Of a stretch of DNA of 39,305 bases, positions 29,036-38,377 are shown piece by piece (within the stretch, counting starts at the first letter, position 1; each line of letters starts with the position of its first letter). Location: positions 1 to 39,305 of the forward strand of contig QHRU01000109.1 of assembly GCA_003220225.1 (NCBI GenBank), written 5' to 3'. The notes beneath the pieces are model-generated. The model made no database searches. It had not been told where the DNA came from and saw nothing but the letters and a program-made list of their open reading frames with translations. The stretch comes from Candidatus Rokuibacteriota bacterium (GTDB taxonomy: Bacteria > Methylomirabilota > Methylomirabilia > Rokubacteriales > CSP1-6). The position numbers and the translations under genes are program-made.

Positions 29036-30442
29036 CTATGACGCGCGCGCCGGCTCCGGCGGCCGCCGCGTCTTCCAGTCGCTCGCCTGCTCATAGGCCC
29101 AGCCGATGCGCAGCGCCACGTCCTCGCGGCCGGCGTGGCAGAGGATCTGGAGCGAGGTCGGCAGCCCGTCGGCGGTGAAGCCATTGGGGACGGCGAGGCC
29201 ACACAGCCCCAGATAGTTTCCGGCGCGCGTGAAGAACGCCGCGGTGCCCGACTGATCGACCTTCGCGATCGGTATCGCCGCGGTTTGCGTCGTGGGCGTC
29301 AGCAGCGCGTCCATATCGGCCAGCGCGGCCACGAACGCCCGGCGGTGCGCCTCGCGGTCGGCCAACGCCATCAGATAGTCGCGGGCGGACATGCCGCGGC
29401 CCACCTGGATGCGCGGGCGGATGTGCGGATCGACGGGCAGGCTCATGTCGTCCACGAGGTGACCGACGAAGCGATAGCCCTCGGCGCCGATGATGCGCCC
29501 GGTGCCGGCCGCGTAGTCGCTGAAGCGGTTGGGGAGCGCGACGCGGACGATCTCGGCCCCCAGCCCGGCGAGCTTCTTCACCGACGCGTCGTAGGCGGCG
29601 AGCACCTCGGCGTCGACGCCGACGCGTTCGTCGTCCGGCAGGACGGCCAGGCGCAGCCCGGCGACGCCACGGCGCAGCGTGGGCAGCGGATCGGACGGCG
29701 TCCAGGCCAGGGTCTGCGGATCGCGCGGGTCGGGGCCGTTGAGGGCTTTGAAGACGAGCGCGGCGTCCTCGACCGAGCGCGCCATCGGGCCCGGCGTGTC
29801 GAGCGTGAACGACAGCGGCAGCACGCCGTAGGTGCTGATGCGGCCCGCCGTCACCTTGAGGCCGACGATGCCGCACCACGCGGCGGGCAGCCGCACCGAG
29901 CCGCCGGTGTCGGTGCCGATGGCGACGGGCGCCAGGCCGGCGGCGACGGCGACGCCCGAGCCGCTGGACGAGCCGCCGGGGGTCCGGTGCACCGACAGAT
30001 CCCATGGGTTCCACGGCGTGCCGAGGTGCGTGTTGGTGCCGAACGAGCCCATCGCGAACTCCACGGTGTGGGTCTTGCCCAGCACGATCATCCCGGCGCC
30101 GATCAGCCGCTCGGCCAGGGTGGCCGTCACCGGCGACACGCGATCGATCCACACTTTCGAGCCGCCCGCCGTCCGGCGGCCCTGGAGGTCGACGAGGTCT
30201 TTCAGCGCGATGGGCACGCCGTGCAGCGGCCCGATGCGGTGGCCGCTCCTGATGGCGCTGTCGGCGGCCTCGGCGGCCAGCCGCGCCTCGGACTCGTAGA
30301 GCGCGATGTACGCGTGGAGCGCGTCGCGCTGCTTGATGCGCACGAGCAGCGCGTCCACCACGTCCACGGGCGACAGCGCGCGCGCCTCGAACGCGCGCGA
30401 GAGCTCGGCGACGCCGGCCCAGACCGGATCGACGGTGCTCAT
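29036..30442 (-). CDS. Amidase signature family protein
   Basis: A 468-residue amidase (GatA/AmiE-superfamily). The Ser-cisSer-Lys triad is complete: Lys81 in IALKDLVD, Ser158 in PGGSSSGSG and Ser182 in TDTGGSVRLPA; the spacing matches GatA (77 then 24). It cleaves a C-N amide bond; there is no GatB or GatC beside it, and family enzymes include indoleacetamide, nicotinamide and peptide amidases, so the substrate is unknown. The ATG at 30442 lies only 10 bases after a GC hairpin repeat and lacks a strong ribosome-binding site. It lies downstream of the FAH and M20 genes, in the same direction. Confidence 0.92.
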   Translation of the reverse strand: MSTVDPVWAGVAELSRAFEARALSPVDVVDALLVRIKQRDALHAYIALYESEARLAAEAADSAIRSGHRIGPLHGVPIALKDLVDLQGRRTAGGSKVWIDRVSPVTATLAERLIGAGMIVLGKTHTVEFAMGSFGTNTHLGTPWNPWDLSVHRTPGGSSSGSGVAVAAGLAPVAIGTDTGGSVRLPAAWCGIVGLKVTAGRISTYGVLPLSFTLDTPGPMARSVEDAALVFKALNGPDPRDPQTLAWTPSDPLPTLRRGVAGLRLAVLPDDERVGVDAEVLAAYDASVKKLAGLGAEIVRVALPNRFSDYAAGTGRIIGAEGYRFVGHLVDDMSLPVDPHIRPRIQVGRGMSARDYLMALADREAHRRAFVAALADMDALLTPTTQTAAIPIAKVDQSGTAAFFTRAGNYLGLCGLAVPNGFTADGLPTSLQILCHAGREDVALRIGWAYEQASDWKTRRPPEPARAS

Positions 30443-30581: not shown

Positions 30582-31475
30582 TCATCCCTGCACCACGTGG
30601 TTCGACAGCGTGCCGATGCGCGGCACGGTGATGGACACGCGATCCTCGGGCGCCAGCGTGAAGCCCGCTTCGGGCACGAGCCCGGTGCCCGTCAACAGAT
30701 AGGCGCCGGACGGAAACAGGTTGTCGCGGACGAGCCAGGCGGCGAGGTCGTCGAACGAGCGGCGCATGGCGGAGGTCGAGATCTTGCCCTCGTACGCGAC
30801 GGCGCCGCGGCGCTGGATCATGATGGCGATGTCGAAGACGGGCGCCTTCTCGTCGTCGGTCAGCCACACCACGGGGCCCAGCGCGCACGACTCGCGGTAG
30901 ATCTTGGCCTGCGGCAGGTACAACGGATTTTCGCCCTCGATGTCGCGCGACGAGACGTCGTTGCCCACCGTGTAGCCGGCGATCTCGCCGTGGGCGGAGA
31001 CGAGCACGGCGATCTCCGGCTCGGGAACGTTCCAGGACGCGTCGCGCCGGATGCGGATGGGCCCGTGGTGACCGCTCACGCGCGAGGCGGCGCCCTTGAA
31101 GAACAGCTCGGGGCGCTCGGCGGTGTAGACCTTGTCGTAGAACGTCTCGGCGCCCGCGGTCTCCTCCATGCGCGCGACGCGGCTGCGCTCGTACGTCACG
31201 CCGGCGGCCCAGACCTCCTGCAGGTCCAGCGGCGGCAGCAGGTGCGGAACGGCCGCGCTCGACGGCGCGGCCATGACCTCGGCGGCCTTCAGGGTGAGGG
31301 CGCCGCGCCGGCGCTCGAGCAGCGCGCGGACCGGGCGCTGCAGCTGAAGCAGCGAGGCGAGGAAGCCGCCGTTGGTGCCGGCGTCGGTCGCCACGATCTC
31401 GATGCGGTCGTCAGCGAGCACGCCCCACGCGGGGCCGGTCGGCAGCGCGCAGCGGGCGAGAAGCACGTTGGCCAT
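30582..31475 (-). CDS. Fumarylacetoacetate hydrolase (FAH) family enzyme, 2-keto-3-deoxy-sugar-acid dehydratase-like
   Basis: A 297-residue FAH-fold enzyme. The segment FYDKVYTAERPELFFKGAA followed by NVPEPEIAVL gives Glu152 and Glu154, then Asp173 in GNDVSSRDIEGENPL and Lys191 in QAKIYRESC. The Glu-x-Glu...Asp...Lys spacing matches what I recall for archaeal 2-keto-3-deoxy-D-arabinonate dehydratase, with the acids binding Mg2+ and the Lys catalytic. Other FAH roles (acylpyruvate hydrolysis, decarboxylation) cannot be excluded. The ATG at 31475 is chosen for GGAGG spacing of 5; ATG 31478 directly precedes it and overlaps the previous stop. It is coupled to the NMT1/THI5-like gene. Confidence 0.85.
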   Translation of the reverse strand: MANVLLARCALPTGPAWGVLADDRIEIVATDAGTNGGFLASLLQLQRPVRALLERRRGALTLKAAEVMAAPSSAAVPHLLPPLDLQEVWAAGVTYERSRVARMEETAGAETFYDKVYTAERPELFFKGAASRVSGHHGPIRIRRDASWNVPEPEIAVLVSAHGEIAGYTVGNDVSSRDIEGENPLYLPQAKIYRESCALGPVVWLTDDEKAPVFDIAIMIQRRGAVAYEGKISTSAMRRSFDDLAAWLVRDNLFPSGAYLLTGTGLVPEAGFTLAPEDRVSITVPRIGTLSNHVVQG

Positions 31476-32407
31476 CATGACCTCCGGGCCGCATCGCCGA
31501 CGACGTCGCGGGCGATGGCGGTGTCGATCAGGTCGTCATAGCGATGCCGGCGCGTGATGAAGCCGCCGTCGAGCAGGATCTGCTGCAGATACTCGTAACC
31601 CGGGCGCTCCAGAATCGGATCGCGCGCCCACGTGTCCTGGCCGAGGTAGCGCGTCACCGCGCGCAGCCGAATCGCCTGGTCGATGTCGGGGAACGCCGGC
31701 GCGACGACCTCGGCGATGGGCTTGGCGTCCACGCCCGTCATCCAGCGCTGGGCGCGATAGAGCGCGCGCGTGAAGCGGAGCAGCACGTCGCGCCCGTCGC
31801 GCAGAAATCGCTCGGTGGTCATGTAGGACGAGAACGGCACGGGCCCCGTCGCGTCGCCCATCGAGGCGACCAGGTGCGCCGCGCCGGCCGCGATCAGCCG
31901 CTCGGTGAACGGCTGCCCCGTCTCGAAGAAGTCGCCGTGACCGTTCTTGAACGCCGCGAGGGCCTCGGGCAGCGGCAGGGTGCGCTCGATCCGCACCGTG
32001 GCCGGATCCACGCCGTGCTTGCGCAGCACGGTCAGCATGCATTGCCACGGGGTCGGCGCCTCGGCGAACGAGACGATGGTCTTGCCGACGACGTCGGCCC
32101 ACGCGAAGCCCGGGCGCGGTTCACGGGACAGCAGGAAGAACCCGTTCCGCTGGTTCACCGCGGCGAAGTGGGGGAGCGACGGCCCCCCGCGGTCGGCGAC
32201 GTCGAGGCTCCGCATGATTCCGCCCAGCGCGATCTCCGCGTGTCCGTCGATCAGCGCGCCGGTCGTCGTGACCCCGCGGCCGGCCGTCTCCACCTGCACG
32301 TCGAGGCCCTCGCCGGCGAAGTGTCCGCCGTAGAGCGCCACGAACTGCGGCGCGTAGAAGATCGACCGGAAGGGCTCGTAGATCGTGAGCCGTCGCGCGC
32401 CGCTCAT
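31475..32407 (-). CDS. NMT1/THI5-like (SsuA-type) solute-binding fold protein
   Basis: A 310-residue periplasmic-binding-like protein. LTIYEPFRSIFYAPQFVALY, GHFAGEGLDVQVETAG, the GxxA-type IDGHAEIALGGIMRS and FALNG-like stretches match PF09084. No signal peptide is visible from ATG 32407, and no earlier start is possible, so the protein should stay in the cytoplasm or be exported by another route. No permease or ATPase lies beside it. The start codon is 9 bases from a TATACT box and there is no Shine-Dalgarno, suggesting a leaderless message. The stop overlaps the FAH start. The ligand may be an acid related to the FAH or M20 substrates; this is inference. Confidence 0.8.
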   Translation of the reverse strand: MSGARRLTIYEPFRSIFYAPQFVALYGGHFAGEGLDVQVETAGRGVTTTGALIDGHAEIALGGIMRSLDVADRGGPSLPHFAAVNQRNGFFLLSREPRPGFAWADVVGKTIVSFAEAPTPWQCMLTVLRKHGVDPATVRIERTLPLPEALAAFKNGHGDFFETGQPFTERLIAAGAAHLVASMGDATGPVPFSSYMTTERFLRDGRDVLLRFTRALYRAQRWMTGVDAKPIAEVVAPAFPDIDQAIRLRAVTRYLGQDTWARDPILERPGYEYLQQILLDGGFITRRHRYDDLIDTAIARDVVGDAARRS

Positions 32408-32503: not shown

Positions 32504-33781
32504 TCACGCGCAGAGCTGGTGGGTCGCGTACGCGATCGCCCTGGCGGCCGCGACCAGATCTTTCAGGGGAACGCGCTCGTCCGGCGTCGGCCACTCCTTG
32601 TAGATGCGGATGTCGCCCGCGCCGTACTGCACGGTGGGGATCCCGTGAGACATCAGGATGTTGCCGTCGCCGACGTTGCCGAGGCGTCCCCAGCCGCCGA
32701 CGACGGCCGGCGCGCCGGTGGCGAGCCGCTGTCCTTCGGCGAGCGAGGTGACGAGGGGATGGTCCGGCCTCACCTCCATCGGATCCTGGAACCAGCCATC
32801 CTCCGTGCCGTTCGCGGGGATCGTCATCTCGGCGTCGAAGGCGGGATGGTCCTTCTTGATGTCGGCGAGGAGCCGCTGCACGTCGGCGCGCACCGTCTCG
32901 AGCGTCTGACCCGGCACCGTCCGGAGCTGGAAGATCATCTCGCACTCGCGGCTCGACATGCCCGTATAGCTCTTCTGGTAGTAGTGCTCCTTGTGCATCG
33001 TGTCGAACGTGTGCGTCGGGAAGCCGGGCAGCTCGGGGTGCGGGGTGAACCGCAGCCACCCGCCGGGCTCGATCGGATCGAGGCTCGGCCCGATGCGCCG
33101 CATGATCTCGGCCTGCTGCTCGATCGGGTTCATGTACTGCGCCTTGGCTGCCCGGCTGTAGCGGAAGAAGAGCTCGGGACTCTTCGTCTTGATGCGCACC
33201 ATGACGATCCCGACGCAGACGTTGGCGATGGTGTTGGCGGAGTGCTCCATGTTGATGGCGAGGTCCGTGCGCAGGCCCTTGGCCATGAGCGCGCGCGTCC
33301 CCGCGCCGCCGAGCTTGTGCGCCACGACCGGGCAGACGACGACGTCGCCGCGCAGGCGGACGCCGGCGCGGACGATGGCTTCCACCGCGCAGATGGCGGC
33401 CACGACGCCGCCCTTGTCGTCGTGCGCGCCCATGCCCCACACCCACCCGTCCTCGAACTTGGCGCCGTACGGATCCACGCTCCAGCCGCTCATCTCCACG
33501 CCGGGATCCATGTGACCGTTGAGCATGAGGCTCCGCCCGCCGCCCGTGCCCCGCAGGCGCGCGATCGGCTGACGCGTCTTCTTGCCGGGCTTCGCCCAGT
33601 GGGTGACGTCCAGCATCTCCACGTCGAGGCCGAGGTCGGACATGTGGTTGGCGAGATAGTCCGCGAGGGTGCCTTCCTCGAACGTGGTGCTCGGGATGCG
33701 GATGGCGGCCTGCTCGAGCTTCAGCACCTGCGCGTCGCTGATCCCCGCGACGATCTTCTTCCAGTCGCCGCCGTCGACCAT
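32504..33781 (-). CDS. M20 family peptidase/deacylase-like protein with altered catalytic Glu pair
   Basis: A 425-residue M20 (ArgE/DapE/CPG2) fold protein. The metal-1 motif NGHMDPGVEMSGWSVDPY gives His90 and Asp92, GAHDDKGG gives Asp121/122, NMEHS gives Glu179 and the C-terminal SHGIPTV gives the last His. The conserved DEExGxxG that carries the general-base Glu and a metal Glu reads VVAHKLGGAGT here, so His155 and Lys156 stand in place of Glu-Glu. It is otherwise intact and full length. It may act on an N-acyl or peptide substrate by a modified mechanism, or be a non-catalytic member. The ATG at 33781 has AGGAG that overlaps the stop codon of a short upstream frame. Confidence 0.86.
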   Translation of the reverse strand: MVDGGDWKKIVAGISDAQVLKLEQAAIRIPSTTFEEGTLADYLANHMSDLGLDVEMLDVTHWAKPGKKTRQPIARLRGTGGGRSLMLNGHMDPGVEMSGWSVDPYGAKFEDGWVWGMGAHDDKGGVVAAICAVEAIVRAGVRLRGDVVVCPVVAHKLGGAGTRALMAKGLRTDLAINMEHSANTIANVCVGIVMVRIKTKSPELFFRYSRAAKAQYMNPIEQQAEIMRRIGPSLDPIEPGGWLRFTPHPELPGFPTHTFDTMHKEHYYQKSYTGMSSRECEMIFQLRTVPGQTLETVRADVQRLLADIKKDHPAFDAEMTIPANGTEDGWFQDPMEVRPDHPLVTSLAEGQRLATGAPAVVGGWGRLGNVGDGNILMSHGIPTVQYGAGDIRIYKEWPTPDERVPLKDLVAAARAIAYATHQLCA

Positions 33782-33954: not shown

Positions 33955-35451
33955 ATGCCCCGCATGATTCGGTCGCTGGCCATCGTCCTGGTCCTCCTTG
34001 CGGCGGCTCAGGCGTGGGCCGCCGGCGAGCGCGACGTCACGATCGCCCAGGGCATCGACGCCGAGTTCCTCGACGTGCAGATGACCAACAACATCGTCAC
34101 GCTGATCATCAACGGCTCGATCTACGACACCCTCCTGACGCGTGACAAGTCGCTCGCGATCCAGCCGCGGCTGGCCACCTCCTACAAGCTCGTGGGCGAC
34201 CGGATGTGGGAAGTGAAGCTCCGCCGGGGCGTGCAGTTCCACAACGGCGAGCCCTTCGACGCCGAGGCCGTGAAGTTCTCGGTCGAGCGCATCCAGCGCC
34301 CGGACTTCAAGTCGCCGCAGAAGGGCTGGTTCAGCACCATCGAGCGCGTGGAGATCGTCGATGCCGCCACGGTGCGCTTCCACACCAAGGTGCCGGATCC
34401 CGCGATGCCCGCGCGCATGACGCTCATGTACCAGATGGCGCCGAAATACGTGGCCCAGGTCGGCGACGCTCAGGCGAACCTGAAACCCGTCGGGACCGGC
34501 CCCTTCAAGTTCGTGGAGTGGCAGAAGAACGAGCGGATCGTGGTCGAGGCCAACGACGCGCACTGGACCGGCAAGCCCGCGATACGCCGGGCGACGTGGC
34601 GGCCCATCCCCGAGCTGGGCGCACGCATCGCCGCGCTGCAGACGGGCCAGGCCGACCTGATCGTCAACGTGCCGCCGGACCAGCTCCCGATGCTCGCGGC
34701 GACCAAGAGCGTGCGCGTCGAGAAGATTCCGAGCTGCCGGATCATCTCGTTCCAGATCGCGCAGATCAAGGGCGGGCCGCTCGCCGACAAGCGGGTGCGC
34801 CAGGCGCTCAACTACGCCGTCGACATGCAGGGGATCCTCGATGCCGTGCTGCTCGGCAACGGCAAGCGCATCAACTCCTGGATGCCGCCCAACGTCTGGG
34901 GCCACGATCCGAGCATCCCGTTCTACGAGTACGACCCCAAGAAGGCCAAGGAGCTGCTGGCCGCGGCCGGGCAGACGAACCTCACGCTGACCCTGCAGGC
35001 GCCCAACGGACGCTGGGCGATGGACAAGGACATCGCGCAGGCGGTGGCGGGCCAGCTGACCGAGAACGGGATCAAGACCAACGTGAAGATCATCGGCGAG
35101 TGGGGCGCGTACGTGCGCAGCATCCTCGACCACAAGACCGAGGACATCGCCATGGCCGGCTGGTGCCTGCCGAGCCTCGAGCCCGACCACTGGGTGACGC
35201 CGAATCTGAAGACGGGGGAGGCCGTGTCGCAGTACAGCAACCCCGAGGTCGACAAGCTCATGGACCAGGCCCGCGCGGAGATGAACCCGGACAAGCGCAA
35301 GCAGCTCTACAGCCAGCTCCTGCGCGTGATCCGCGACGAGGCGCCGTACATCTTCGGCTACCAGCAGATGGACATCTACGGCGTCAACAAGCGCCTCAAG
35401 TGGACGCCGCGCGGCGACGAGTCGATACGGCTGACCGAGATCGGATTTTAG
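33955..35451 (+). CDS. ABC transporter substrate-binding protein, family 5 (peptide/nickel type)
   Basis: A 498-residue DppA/OppA-type binding protein. The signal peptide covers residues 1-22 (core LAIVLVLLAAAQ, cleavage after AWA). The mature part has NIVTLIINGSIYDTLLTRD, WEVKLRRGVQFHNGEPFDAE, the conserved GTGPFKFVEW, RVRQALNYAVD and a C-terminal DEAPYIFGYQQMDIYGV, all typical of SBP_bac_5. The ATG at 33955 has AAGGAGG. It captures an oligopeptide, or another ligand of this broad family, and passes it to the permeases at 35616 and 36542. It is separated from them by a 164-base hairpin-rich gap. Confidence 0.94.
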   Translation: MPRMIRSLAIVLVLLAAAQAWAAGERDVTIAQGIDAEFLDVQMTNNIVTLIINGSIYDTLLTRDKSLAIQPRLATSYKLVGDRMWEVKLRRGVQFHNGEPFDAEAVKFSVERIQRPDFKSPQKGWFSTIERVEIVDAATVRFHTKVPDPAMPARMTLMYQMAPKYVAQVGDAQANLKPVGTGPFKFVEWQKNERIVVEANDAHWTGKPAIRRATWRPIPELGARIAALQTGQADLIVNVPPDQLPMLAATKSVRVEKIPSCRIISFQIAQIKGGPLADKRVRQALNYAVDMQGILDAVLLGNGKRINSWMPPNVWGHDPSIPFYEYDPKKAKELLAAAGQTNLTLTLQAPNGRWAMDKDIAQAVAGQLTENGIKTNVKIIGEWGAYVRSILDHKTEDIAMAGWCLPSLEPDHWVTPNLKTGEAVSQYSNPEVDKLMDQARAEMNPDKRKQLYSQLLRVIRDEAPYIFGYQQMDIYGVNKRLKWTPRGDESIRLTEIGF

Positions 35452-35454
35452 CTC

Positions 35455-35591
35455 GGAGGGGGGCTTCGCCTCTCTGCCGAGCGAAGGGGCTACGCCCCCT
35501 CGGACTCCCCGGCCGACGGGCGGAGCGAGCCTCGCGGCTCGCTCTCGCCCTGCCTCCCCCCAGAGCAGGATTGCGCGGGCGAAGCCCGCGC
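35455..35591 (+). repeat. Hairpin-rich intergenic repeat, copy 4 (B module plus two hairpins)
   Basis: In the 164-base gap between binding-protein and permease genes (35452-35615). It contains the B module (35480-35514), a 9-base stem GAGCGAGCC/GGCTCGCTC with loop TCGC (35523-35544), and an 8-base stem GCGCGGGC/GCCCGCGC with loop GAA (35573-35591). No U-tract follows any of them. In structure and place it resembles REP elements that protect the upstream message. Confidence 0.75.
35480..35514 (+). repeat. B module repeat, copy 2
   Basis: A 35-base match to 30486-30523, same orientation, with stem GGGGC/GCCCC and loop TAC. Confidence 0.85.
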
Positions 35592-35615
35592 TCGAATCCG
35601 CGATTGCCCTGACCG

Positions 35616-36545
35616 ATGGTCGGCTATGTCGGACGGCGGCTGTTGCAGAGCCTGGGCGTCCTGCTCGGCGTGTCGGTGATCGTCTTCGGGCTGCTGCACC
35701 TCACCGGCGATCCCACGCGGCTGCTCCTGCCGCTCGAGGCGCGCGAGGAAGACGTGCGGCAGCTGCGCGCGCTGCTCGGTCTCGACGACCCGCTGTGGGT
35801 GCAGTACGGCCGGTTCCTGGCCCGGGCCGTCCGCGGTGACTTCGGGCTCTCGTTCAAGCACCAGGTGCCGGCGCTCGCGCTGATCTTCCAGACGCTGCCC
35901 GCCACGCTGCAGCTCACGGCGGCGGGTCTCGGCCTGGCGCTCGTGGTCGCCGTCCCGGCCGGCATCCTGTCCGCGCTGAAGCGCAACTCCCTCCTCGACG
36001 CCCTCTGCTCGGTGGGCGTGCTGCTCGGACAGGCGATGCCCGTCTACTGGCTCGGGCTGCTGCTGATCATGGTGTTCGCGGTGGGCCTCGGCTGGTTTCC
36101 GGCCGCCGGCCGCGACGGCTGGACCTCCATCGTGCTGCCGGCCACCGCGCTCGGCGCGTTCTCCATGGCGCGCATCGCCCGCATGGCGCGCTCGGGAATG
36201 CTGGAGGTGCTGGCGCAGGACTACGTGCGCACCGCGCGGGCCGCCGGCATCCGCACGTTCGTGGTGACCTACAAATACGCGCTCAAGAACGCGGCGATCC
36301 CACTGGTCACCATCATCGGGCTCGAGTTCGGGATTCTCCTCGGCGGCGCCGTCATCACCGAGACGATCTTCGCCTGGCCCGGCGTCGGCCGCCTCGCCGT
36401 CGACGCCATCTTCAGCCGCGACTACCCGCTCGTGCAGGCCATCGTGGCCGTGCTGGCCACGCTCTTCGTCGTCATCAACCTCGTCATCGACCTCGTCTAC
36501 ACGTACCTCGACCCGCGGATCGTCTACGTGCGGAGCGCGCGGTGA
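35616..36545 (+). CDS. dppB: Dipeptide/oligopeptide-type ABC permease (DppB family)
   Basis: A 309-residue inner-membrane permease with about six transmembrane segments. MVGYVGRRLLQSLGVLLGVS is the family opening. The large loop has LGLDDPLWVQYGRFL and GDFGLSF. The ATPase-contact loop is DYVRTARAAGIRTFVVTYKY, and the C-terminus has TETIFAWPGVGRLAVDAIF and RDYPLVQA. The ATG at 35616 is the first start after the repeat gap. The stop overlaps the GTG of the partner permease by 4 bases. The gene symbol reflects family, not proven ligand. Confidence 0.94.
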   Translation: MVGYVGRRLLQSLGVLLGVSVIVFGLLHLTGDPTRLLLPLEAREEDVRQLRALLGLDDPLWVQYGRFLARAVRGDFGLSFKHQVPALALIFQTLPATLQLTAAGLGLALVVAVPAGILSALKRNSLLDALCSVGVLLGQAMPVYWLGLLLIMVFAVGLGWFPAAGRDGWTSIVLPATALGAFSMARIARMARSGMLEVLAQDYVRTARAAGIRTFVVTYKYALKNAAIPLVTIIGLEFGILLGGAVITETIFAWPGVGRLAVDAIFSRDYPLVQAIVAVLATLFVVINLVIDLVYTYLDPRIVYVRSAR

Positions 36546-37414
36546 GCGTCACCGCCACCATGCTTCCGGTCGTCGCGCGCCCGCGCCGGCGCGTCAGCTT
36601 CCGCGCCGCGTTCGGCCTCGGCGCTCTGCTGTTGATCGGCGGATCCGCGGTGCTCGCGCCGCAGCTCGCTCCGTGGGATCCGGCCCGGCAGATGCTCACC
36701 AAGCGCCTGCGGCCGCCGATGTGGCAGGCGCATGGCCTGCGTGAGCACCCGCTGGGCACCGATCACCTCGGCCGCGACATCCTCAGCCGCATCCTGCACG
36801 GCGGCCGCATCTCGCTCGGCGTCGGCCTCACCGCGGTGACGCTGTCGGCGCTGATCGGCGTGACGCTCGGTCTGCTCGCCGGCTTCTTCGGGGGGCGCGC
36901 CGATGCGCTCATCATGCGGATCGTGGACGTGTTCCTCGCTATCCCCTACATCCTGCTCGCCATGGGTGTCGTGTTCGCGCTGGGGCCGAGTCTGCTCAAC
37001 GTGATCCTCGTGATGGGCGCGACCCGCTGGGTTCAGTTCGCGCGCATCGTTCGTGCGGACGTCCTCTCGATCCGGGAGCGCGAGTTCGTCGCCGGCGCCC
37101 GCGCCCGCGGCAACCGCCCGCTGCGGTTGCTGCTCCGTCACGTGCTGCCGAACGCGCTCACGCCGATCATCGTGGTGGCCACCCTCGAGCTGGCCTTCAT
37201 GATCATCTACGAATCGGCGCTGTCGTTCCTCGGGCTCGGCGTCCAGCCGCCCACGCCCACCTGGGGCTGGATGCTCGCGGACGGACGCAACTACGTGGCG
37301 ACCGCGTGGTGGCTGGCCACGTTTCCCGGCCTGGCCATCATGCTCACCGTGCTGGCCGTGAACCTGCTCGGCGACTGGCTGCGCGACACCCTGGACCCGC
37401 GGCTGAAGGTCTGA
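36542..37414 (+). CDS. dppC: Dipeptide/oligopeptide-type ABC permease (DppC family)
   Basis: A 290-residue permease partner of the DppB-like protein. It has an N-terminal cytoplasmic Arg-rich segment and first membrane helix ([20 protein letters not shown]), then [20 protein letters not shown], which is diagnostic for DppC/OppC. The ATPase loop is [20 protein letters not shown], and the C-terminus contains [20 protein letters not shown]. The GTG start at 36542 lies in the 4-base overlap with dppB. The next gene begins on the base after the stop. Confidence 0.94.
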
Positions 37415-38377
37415 GTGGCGCTGCTGTCCGTCGAGGGTCTCCGCACGCAATTCGCCACCGGCGCGGGAACGGTACGCGCGGTCGACGGCGTGAGCTTCGC
37501 CATCGAGCGCGGCGAGGTGCTGGGGCTCGTCGGCGAGTCCGGCTGCGGCAAGAGCGTCACGTCGCTGTCGATCATGCGGCTCGTGCCCCCGCCCGGGCAG
37601 ATCGTCGCCGGGCGCATCCGCCTCGAGGGCGAAGACCTGCTCGACAAGGACGCCGAGGCGATGCGCCGCGTGCGCGGCGCGCGCATCGCCATGGTCTTCC
37701 AGGAGCCGATGACGTCGCTCAACCCGGTGTTCACCATCGGCGACCAGATCGCCGCCGCCGTGCTCGCGCACGAGGGCGGCCGCCGCCGCGCGGCGTGGGA
37801 CCGCGCGGTCGAGATGCTGGATCAGGTGCAGGTGCCCTCGCCGGGCGAGCGCGCGCGCGACTATCCGCACCAGCTCTCGGGAGGTCTGCGCCAGCGCGCC
37901 ATGATCGCCCTGGCGCTCGCGCCGGGGCCGCAGCTGCTGATCGCCGACGAGCCCACCACCGCGCTCGACGTGACGATCCAGGCGCAGATCCTCGACCTCC
38001 TGCGCCGGCTGCAGGCCGAGCGGGGCATGGCGGTGCTGCTGATCACGCACGACCTCGGCGTGGTGGCCGAGCTCTGCCACCGCGTCGCCATCATCTACGC
38101 CGGCCGGATCGTCGAGATGGCGCCGGTCGCCAGGATCTTCGAGGAGCCGCTGCACCCCTACACGCGCGGCCTGCTCCGCTGCCTGCCGCACCCCAGCCGA
38201 TTCGGCCAGCCGCTCTCCTCCATCGAGGGAGCGCCGCCCGATCTCCGTGGCGCCGACGCCGGCTGCCCGTTCGCGCCGCGTTGCCCGCTCGCGATCGAGA
38301 GCTGTCGCCGCCACGAGCCCGCGCTCGCGGAGCGGCGGCCCGGACACTTCGTGGCGTGTCCGGTGGCTGTCGTGTGA
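37415..38377 (+). CDS. dppD: Dipeptide/oligopeptide-type ABC ATPase (DppD family)
   Basis: A 320-residue ATPase. Walker A GESGCGKS lies at residues 40-47 (Lys46), the Q-loop in [10 protein letters not shown], signature LSGGLRQR starting at residue 154, Walker [16 protein letters not shown] and switch His in ITHDLGVV. The C-terminal oligo_HPY region has HPYTRGLL and a four-Cys-type segment [14 protein letters not shown], which in homologues can bind an iron-sulfur cluster. The GTG at 37415 directly follows the dppC stop. It is paired with the next ATPase. Confidence 0.95.

Follow-up and report, generated by a model that had tools for sequence, protein, structure and literature searches.

Our data indicate that a protein encoded within the window (here, the whole 39,305-nucleotide stretch of DNA that was analysed, which is contig C62 among the 167 contigs of a 6.03-Mb draft genome) represents a distinct M20-fold subfamily whose active site has been rewired. 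We refer to the protein as M20HK and to the subfamily as the HK family, after the His-Lys pair found at the site of the M20 Glu-Glu motif. The HK family retains the M20 fold together with one metal triad and is without both motif glutamates, without the histidine of the lid domain, and without both ligands that we take to be private to one metal, namely the second motif glutamate and the C-terminal histidine. M20 enzymes are described, in PMC11511702, as two-metal hydrolases with a catalytic glutamate. We judged the chances to be about even that M20HK is catalytically active without being a peptidase, probably works with a single metal, and cleaves a C-N bond of an imported small molecule. If it is active, the HK family would offer a direct test of the natural conversion of a binuclear to a mononuclear centre, and it would mark catabolic enzymes that are probably misnamed.

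The M20HK gene occupies positions 32504..33781 on the reverse strand, and an ORF check returned the same reading frame, strand, and coordinates that the initial annotation had given. The 425-amino-acid product comprises a complete M20 fold with catalytic and lid domains. Pfam PF01546 (Peptidase_M20) matched it with an E value of 2.3e-15 and a score of 57.5 bits, where the cut-off is 24.6, and the best NCBIfam match, TIGR01910 (ArgE/DapE; E 1.3e-39), scored 136.4 bits, which is under the curated cut-off of 217.6. The profile libraries used file the protein solely under general M20 or ArgE/DapE models. In a scan that represented each species by a single genome, the closest named relatives were Rokubacteria, and dN/dS between M20HK and five Rokubacterial HK members ranged from 0.08 to 0.30, on which grounds a pseudogene was rejected. 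That the fold is conserved, as had been stated, was borne out by an AlphaFold2 model built from 70 sequences (mean pLDDT 94.4, pTM 0.92), in which the catalytic domain and the inserted lid/dimerisation domain are both present and residues 12-425 align to DapE. Foldseek ranked 3pfo first and 5-nitroanthranilate aminohydrolase second. A second structure aligner returned DapE 7uoi (Z 39.3, rmsd 3.4, 372 aligned residues), 3pfo (Z 38.7, rmsd 4.1, 398 aligned), and the aminohydrolase 5k8m (Z 38.4, rmsd 3.0, 370 aligned), where matches within 1 Z unit are regarded as tied.

The motif at the Glu-Glu site of M20HK reads AHKLGGAGT. His155 (33317..33319; all residue coordinates are on the reverse strand) occupies the position of the general-base glutamate and Lys156 (33314..33316) that of the metal-ligand glutamate; the codons are CAC AAG. 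Profile alignments to DapE 7uoi and 3pfo run through the motif without a gap, and in the predicted model both residues lie in the loop between the strand at 147-152 and the helix at 160-168. We found His155-Lys156 in 26/26 family members (M20HK and 25 others), and none of the 26 has a glutamate or aspartate at residues 147-165. Together with the gap-free motif alignment, this ruled out a misaligned Glu-Glu motif, and the substitution stands as initially annotated. A sequencing, assembly, or alignment error behind the His-Lys pair has a negligible probability, given the same residues in 25 more sequences from other genomes and the gap-free alignment of the motif.

The comparison comprised 91 sequences, which at residues 155-156 divide into 26 with His-Lys, 47 with Glu-Glu (referred to here as EE), 17 with Glu followed by Ile, Leu, Gln, or Thr (N-Ex), and one with His-His (L057); these counts keep near-copies and partial sequences, such as L005 with its start cut and six EE pairs of at least 90% identity. 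Thus, among the other 65 sequences, residue 155 is Glu in 64 and His only in L057, while residue 156 is Glu in 47, Ile/Leu/Gln/Thr in 17, and His in 1. From the one-genome-per-species scan the best 80 of 144 relatives were taken, and 23 of these (L015-L037) belong to the HK family. Two further members, L106 and L109, came from a sample of genomes around L030, where L026, L030, and L033 were found again. Over the alignment, identity to M20HK is 55-94% among the 25 members, which come from Rokubacteria and Alpha-, Beta-, and Gammaproteobacteria. The closest non-member compared, L014, is 35% identical over the alignment; in short segments, 38-44% is seen for some other non-members. This spread of the His-Lys pair, and the distance to L014, mark the swap as old.

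The initial annotation had held that the remaining ligands of the M20 site are kept. This was correct for His90 (33512..33514), Asp92 (33506..33508), Asp121 (33419..33421), and Glu179 (33245..33247), each present in 26/26 HK sequences. By homology, His90 and Glu179 are ligands of the retained metal site, Asp121 holds the bridging-aspartate position, and Asp92 is presumably a second-shell residue. It was not correct for the C-terminal histidine. Where typical relatives have AHxxxE, the M20HK segment is EWPTPDERV, which places Pro398 (32588..32590) in the histidine column; this column holds proline in 25/25 HK sequences that reach it (L036 is frameshifted) and histidine in 46/47 EE sequences. 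The lid domain is altered as well. Within the lid stretch 197-212, a histidine is present in 0/26 HK sequences compared to 47/47 EE and 17/17 N-Ex sequences, and Arg207 (33161..33163), part of an LFFR motif and present in 26/26 HK sequences, falls in the stretch where other M20 proteins have this histidine. Compared with the canonical two-metal site, the HK family thus lacks the EE motif, the C-terminal histidine, and the lid histidine and retains the His90/Asp121/Glu179 triad. Since the C-terminal histidine is also lost, the change is not a swap of the base on an otherwise intact two-metal site, as had been proposed; read from the alignments, the base and the lid histidine have been lost along with both ligands private to one metal.

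We found a set of polar residues that are invariant or nearly so in the HK family and absent or nearly absent elsewhere, among them H120, D122, H155, K156, N177, H180, R207, D260, K264, H266, Y267, Q285, R366, N369, N374, Q385, Y394, E396, and W397. At four of these (R207, N369, Y394, and E396), most non-HK sequences have a gap. Among these, His180 (33242..33244; Pro in 42/47 EE sequences) and His266 (32984..32986), within a KxHY motif of the lid domain, are family-specific and present in 26/26 HK sequences. Glu396 (32594..32596) lies in a short family-specific insertion; it is present in 25/25 HK sequences, and the column is a gap in 46/47 EE sequences. Lying two residues before the lost histidine, Glu396 is a candidate replacement base or partner of Lys156. 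A histidine elsewhere in the lid, such as His266, could stand in for the histidine that a partner subunit provides.

We asked how the loss of these ligands is distributed among relatives. The second motif glutamate and the C-terminal histidine are both present in 46/47 EE sequences, the exception being L006, a paralogue in the same genome. Both the second glutamate and a histidine at the C-terminal ligand column are absent from 25/25 HK sequences, 17/17 N-Ex sequences, and L057, while four N-Ex sequences have a histidine elsewhere in the C-terminal segment. A wider group beside the HK family is therefore without the same two ligands. N-Ex sequences keep the first glutamate and have Asn (15 of 17) or His (2 of 17) in place of the bridging aspartate; the HK family shares with them the absence of the second glutamate and C-terminal histidine but has neither the first glutamate nor Asn or His at the bridging position. 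The N-Ex sequences with Asn are L002, L003, L014, L038, L039, L046, L058, L059, L070, L073, L076, L079, L085, L090, and L092, and L002 and L003 are paralogues in the genome of the window itself. L107 and L108 contain a GFVHMK motif, with histidine at the bridging-aspartate position, and a GELRGG motif.

Phylogenetic analysis supported this grouping. A quick tree was built after 11 near-copies or partial sequences were dropped, and a careful tree was built from 63 sequences with the diagnostic columns removed and 25 sequences dropped (near-copies, partial or long-branch sequences, and L057). In the careful tree the 18 HK sequences form one clade with support of 100/100, and HK, N-Ex, and 5-nitroanthranilate aminohydrolase are split from the EE sequences with support of 99/97. 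N-Ex as a single group received 56/3, and the 5-nitroanthranilate aminohydrolase sequence, which is partial and long-branched, joins N-Ex at 89/68. The initial annotation had reasoned that conservation of His-Lys among homologues would mark a distinct subfamily, and the 26/26 conservation, the HK clade, and the kept fold agree with this. Our data suggest that the metal site was likely lost once, in a common ancestor, the tree being unrooted. L057 was left out of the careful tree because its long branch meets the HK family in the quick tree. This sequence (L057:2340-3575, from a Nocardiopsis metagenome-assembled genome, 28% identity) has a GHHQGG motif and Asn at the bridging-aspartate position. 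It looked like an intermediate to the HK family and was rejected as one given its long branch and the lack of a second copy: among 296 genomes of its class, its own included, no second sequence of this type was found at E 1e-50.

Of the characterised proteins, 5-nitroanthranilate aminohydrolase (PDB 5k8m-5k8p) resembles M20HK in its M20 fold (Z of approximately 38 against the M20HK model), in the absence of the second metal-ligand glutamate (Ile in the aminohydrolase) with the first histidine and late glutamate kept, in the lack of a histidine in the aligned C-terminal piece, and in its place on the HK side of the tree split. It differs in that the first glutamate is kept where M20HK has His155, in having Asn where M20HK has Asp121 and Ile where M20HK has Lys156, and in an identity of only 19-23% in structural alignments. 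Its structure is, we assume, that of a single-metal protein, and the PDB titles name bound Mn2+ or Zn2+. A citing paper (PMC11903332) also refers to this enzyme. The ArgE/DapE deacylases (DapE 7uoi; 3pfo, a putative acetylornithine deacetylase) share the complete two-domain fold, and the positions of His90/Asp92/Asp121 and Glu179 align, whereas in M20HK both motif glutamates, the C-terminal histidine, and the lid histidine are replaced and the TIGR01910 score stays under the cut-off (136.4 compared to 217.6 bits). M20 hydantoinases and carbamoylases (L-N-carbamoylase 8apz and N-carbamoyl-beta-alanine amidohydrolase 8c46) have the same fold with a Z of approximately 29, and some HK loci have similar neighbours, of the Asp/Glu/hydantoin-racemase, hydantoinase B, and cytosine deaminase families; however, they are farther than DapE, at 12% identity, and were compared by fold and neighbours rather than by motif.

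We next considered the genes around M20HK. In the window, an NMT1-like solute-binding-type protein (31475..32407, reverse strand; Pfam NMT1_2 5.6e-11) is encoded by the next gene in the same direction. It is followed, with a 4-base overlap, by a FAH-family protein (30582..31478, reverse strand; Pfam FAA_hydrolase 9.8e-18) and, also in the same direction, by an amidase-signature hydrolase (29036..30442, reverse strand; Pfam Amidase 1.2e-96). Divergent from M20HK are genes of a peptide-type ABC importer (33955..38377, forward strand), comprising an SBP5 protein, two permeases, and an ATPase by Pfam and NCBIfam. Solute-binding or TRAP components occur in 16/23 HK loci, distributed as peptide ABC in 7, TRAP in 8, and polar-amino-acid ABC in 4, with L022, L031, and L032 counted twice. 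No importer binding protein or TRAP part of the kinds sought was found in the other 7 of the 23 loci, several loci ending at contig ends, although two of these 7 (L019 and L028) have ABC ATPase matches. A branched-chain ABC system is encoded in L110, and a DctP in L111. In 4/23 loci there is a gene whose product matches the L027 protein of the Asp/Glu/hydantoin-racemase family, and L022 has a hydantoinase B gene. Several neighbouring ORFs are without a family match and may be shadow frames. Overall, the context fits a role in importing and degrading small amides or ureides, without pointing to one compound.

Of the 23 loci, 7 contain an M24 gene, which Pfam assigns to the creatinase/prolidase type, and in 6 of them it is directly adjacent. 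It lies directly upstream in L015, L016, L017, L026, and L028, with at most 14 bases between script-called frames; directly downstream in L018, where it is divided between two frames; and, in L024, on the far side of an ABC gene. Examples of these proteins are L015:8943-9980, L016:7873-8973, and L024:13089-14123. M24 was considered as a constant partner of M20HK and rejected, as the gene is absent from 16 of the 23 loci. The genome of the window itself has no close M24 copy, its best match having 28% identity, with a 235-residue piece. When aligned to prolidase 5giu through the L024 protein, all six aligned M24 proteins (6/6) have His and Gln at two positions, which we take to be canonical M24 metal-ligand positions. 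Given these His/Gln substitutions, M20HK and its M24 neighbour may both have altered metal sites. An M24 gene beside a gene of amide-hydrolase fold near an importer is reminiscent of EutD/DoeA and EutE/DoeB, and the M24 neighbour matches the ectoine hydrolase DoeA in PDB and NCBIfam searches. The match reaches 56.6 bits against a cut-off of 613, however, and prolidases match better in the PDB. DoeB belongs to another family. The resemblance is an analogy in gene arrangement; the DoeA-DoeB pathway is one of ectoine catabolism according to PMC5924519.

The canonical M20 mechanism, as given in PMC11511702, uses two metals held by two histidines and two glutamates with a bridging aspartate, and a glutamate as the base; in DapE a histidine is supplied by the partner subunit (PMC5919655). 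Since the glutamate base and the partner-subunit histidine are needed in canonical catalysis and both are absent from the HK family, hydrolysis by M20HK is not assured. The C-terminal histidine of ArgE, H355, is a metal ligand, and for the E. coli ArgE H355A variant PMC4320195 reports that Co(II) bound in one event when titrated spectrally, with kcat reduced approximately 380-fold rather than abolished, while Zn(II) gave no detectable activity and calorimetry that fits two weak Zn sites. These results suggest that a one-metal M20 enzyme is possible, although by analogy they are a partial and weak precedent.

We infer the metal count, the placement of Lys156, which residue is the base, and the type of reaction as follows. 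One metal would be held by His90, Asp121, and Glu179, while the second metal site would have been dismantled by replacement of its glutamate with Lys156 and of its histidine with Pro398. The ammonium group of Lys156 would probably replace the charge of the vacated metal, perhaps paired with the invariant Glu396, and His155 (or Glu396) would serve as base or proton shuttle instead of the catalytic glutamate. Lid residues such as Arg207 or His266 would replace the histidine that the partner subunit supplies in M20 dimers. The bond cleaved would be a C-N bond of the N-acyl, ureido, imide, or amidine type, in a substrate imported through the neighbouring importer. A bolder proposal, which we hold tentatively and at rather less than even chances, is that a two-metal hydrolase was converted in nature into a one-metal enzyme in which a lysine substitutes for a zinc ion and the catalytic glutamate has given way to a histidine or a displaced glutamate, and that this enzyme catalyses a reaction other than ordinary peptide or N-acyl hydrolysis. 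If true, exchange of a metal for lysine would be an active-site design that the M20 fold has stably inherited.

We reasoned that M20HK might instead be a binding or regulatory protein, that is, an M20 fold that binds its ligand, perhaps with one structural metal, and does so without turnover. The catalytic glutamate and the lid histidine are missing, and so are both ligands private to one metal, as would be expected of such a protein. Yet His90, Asp92, Asp121, and Glu179 and the new polar set are invariant in 26/26 sequences, and genes of catabolic-enzyme type surround M20HK in many loci, so that we regard a non-catalytic role as unlikely. The initial annotation had offered new chemistry or a binding role; because the other metal triad and the new polar residues are strictly conserved, the sequences favour an active enzyme.

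Among catalytic alternatives, a two-metal hydrolase whose ligands have been rearranged, with the second site rebuilt by His155, His180, or Glu396, draws on the bridging Asp121. This residue is kept in 26/26 HK sequences, unlike in N-Ex relatives, so that weak binding of a second metal through these new ligands is conceivable; the three residues are likewise invariant, and calorimetry of ArgE H355A was still fitted with two weak Zn sites (PMC4320195). A second cation is hard to reconcile with an invariant lysine at the old ligand position, and both private ligands are missing together. We consider such a rebuilt site distinctly unlikely. Another alternative is that M20HK is not a hydrolase but a lyase, decarboxylase, or isomerase, with Lys156 as base or Schiff base and the single metal as Lewis acid. 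The invariant lysine at the motif ligand position and the loss of the usual water-activating glutamate are consistent with this chemistry, as is the wider group's M20-fold 5-nitroanthranilate aminohydrolase, which acts on an aryl amine according to PDB titles. However, the role of the lysine may be purely electrostatic and the closest characterised relatives are hydrolases, which makes a non-hydrolytic enzyme improbable in our estimate. The mononuclear C-N-cleaving enzyme outlined above is the reading we prefer. A search of open papers on mononuclear M20 enzymes, M20 pseudoenzymes, and M20 proteins with His-Lys returned nothing on the HK family among the matches listed.

The HK family is rare. 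It was found in 7/95 genomes of the class of the window (an eighth match, L014, is N-Ex), in 2/397 genomes around Bradyrhizobium, in 1/369 around L027, and in 4/385 around L030 (two more matches there, L107 and L108, are N-Ex-like), where each sample counts a centre genome that was picked for having an HK gene. The scan patterns, MLNGHMD and DGWVWGM, may miss divergent HK members. A single-sequence search of viral contigs gave no match to its patterns, and a search of plasmids returned 32 records, all below 60% identity, with 27-30% among the matches listed (20 of 32). Genome G1211 contains two HK-family copies (L033/L104 and L109). In L036:3937-5179 the M20HK gene is broken by a frameshift, and upstream of it lies a DUF1989 gene of the urea-amidolyase-associated type, under NCBIfam cut-offs. 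The M20HK protein of L018, in a record titled Actinobacteria, is 79% identical to that of the window and is encoded on a 7.2-kb contig with a Rokubacterial-like gene set; this contig is possibly mis-binned.
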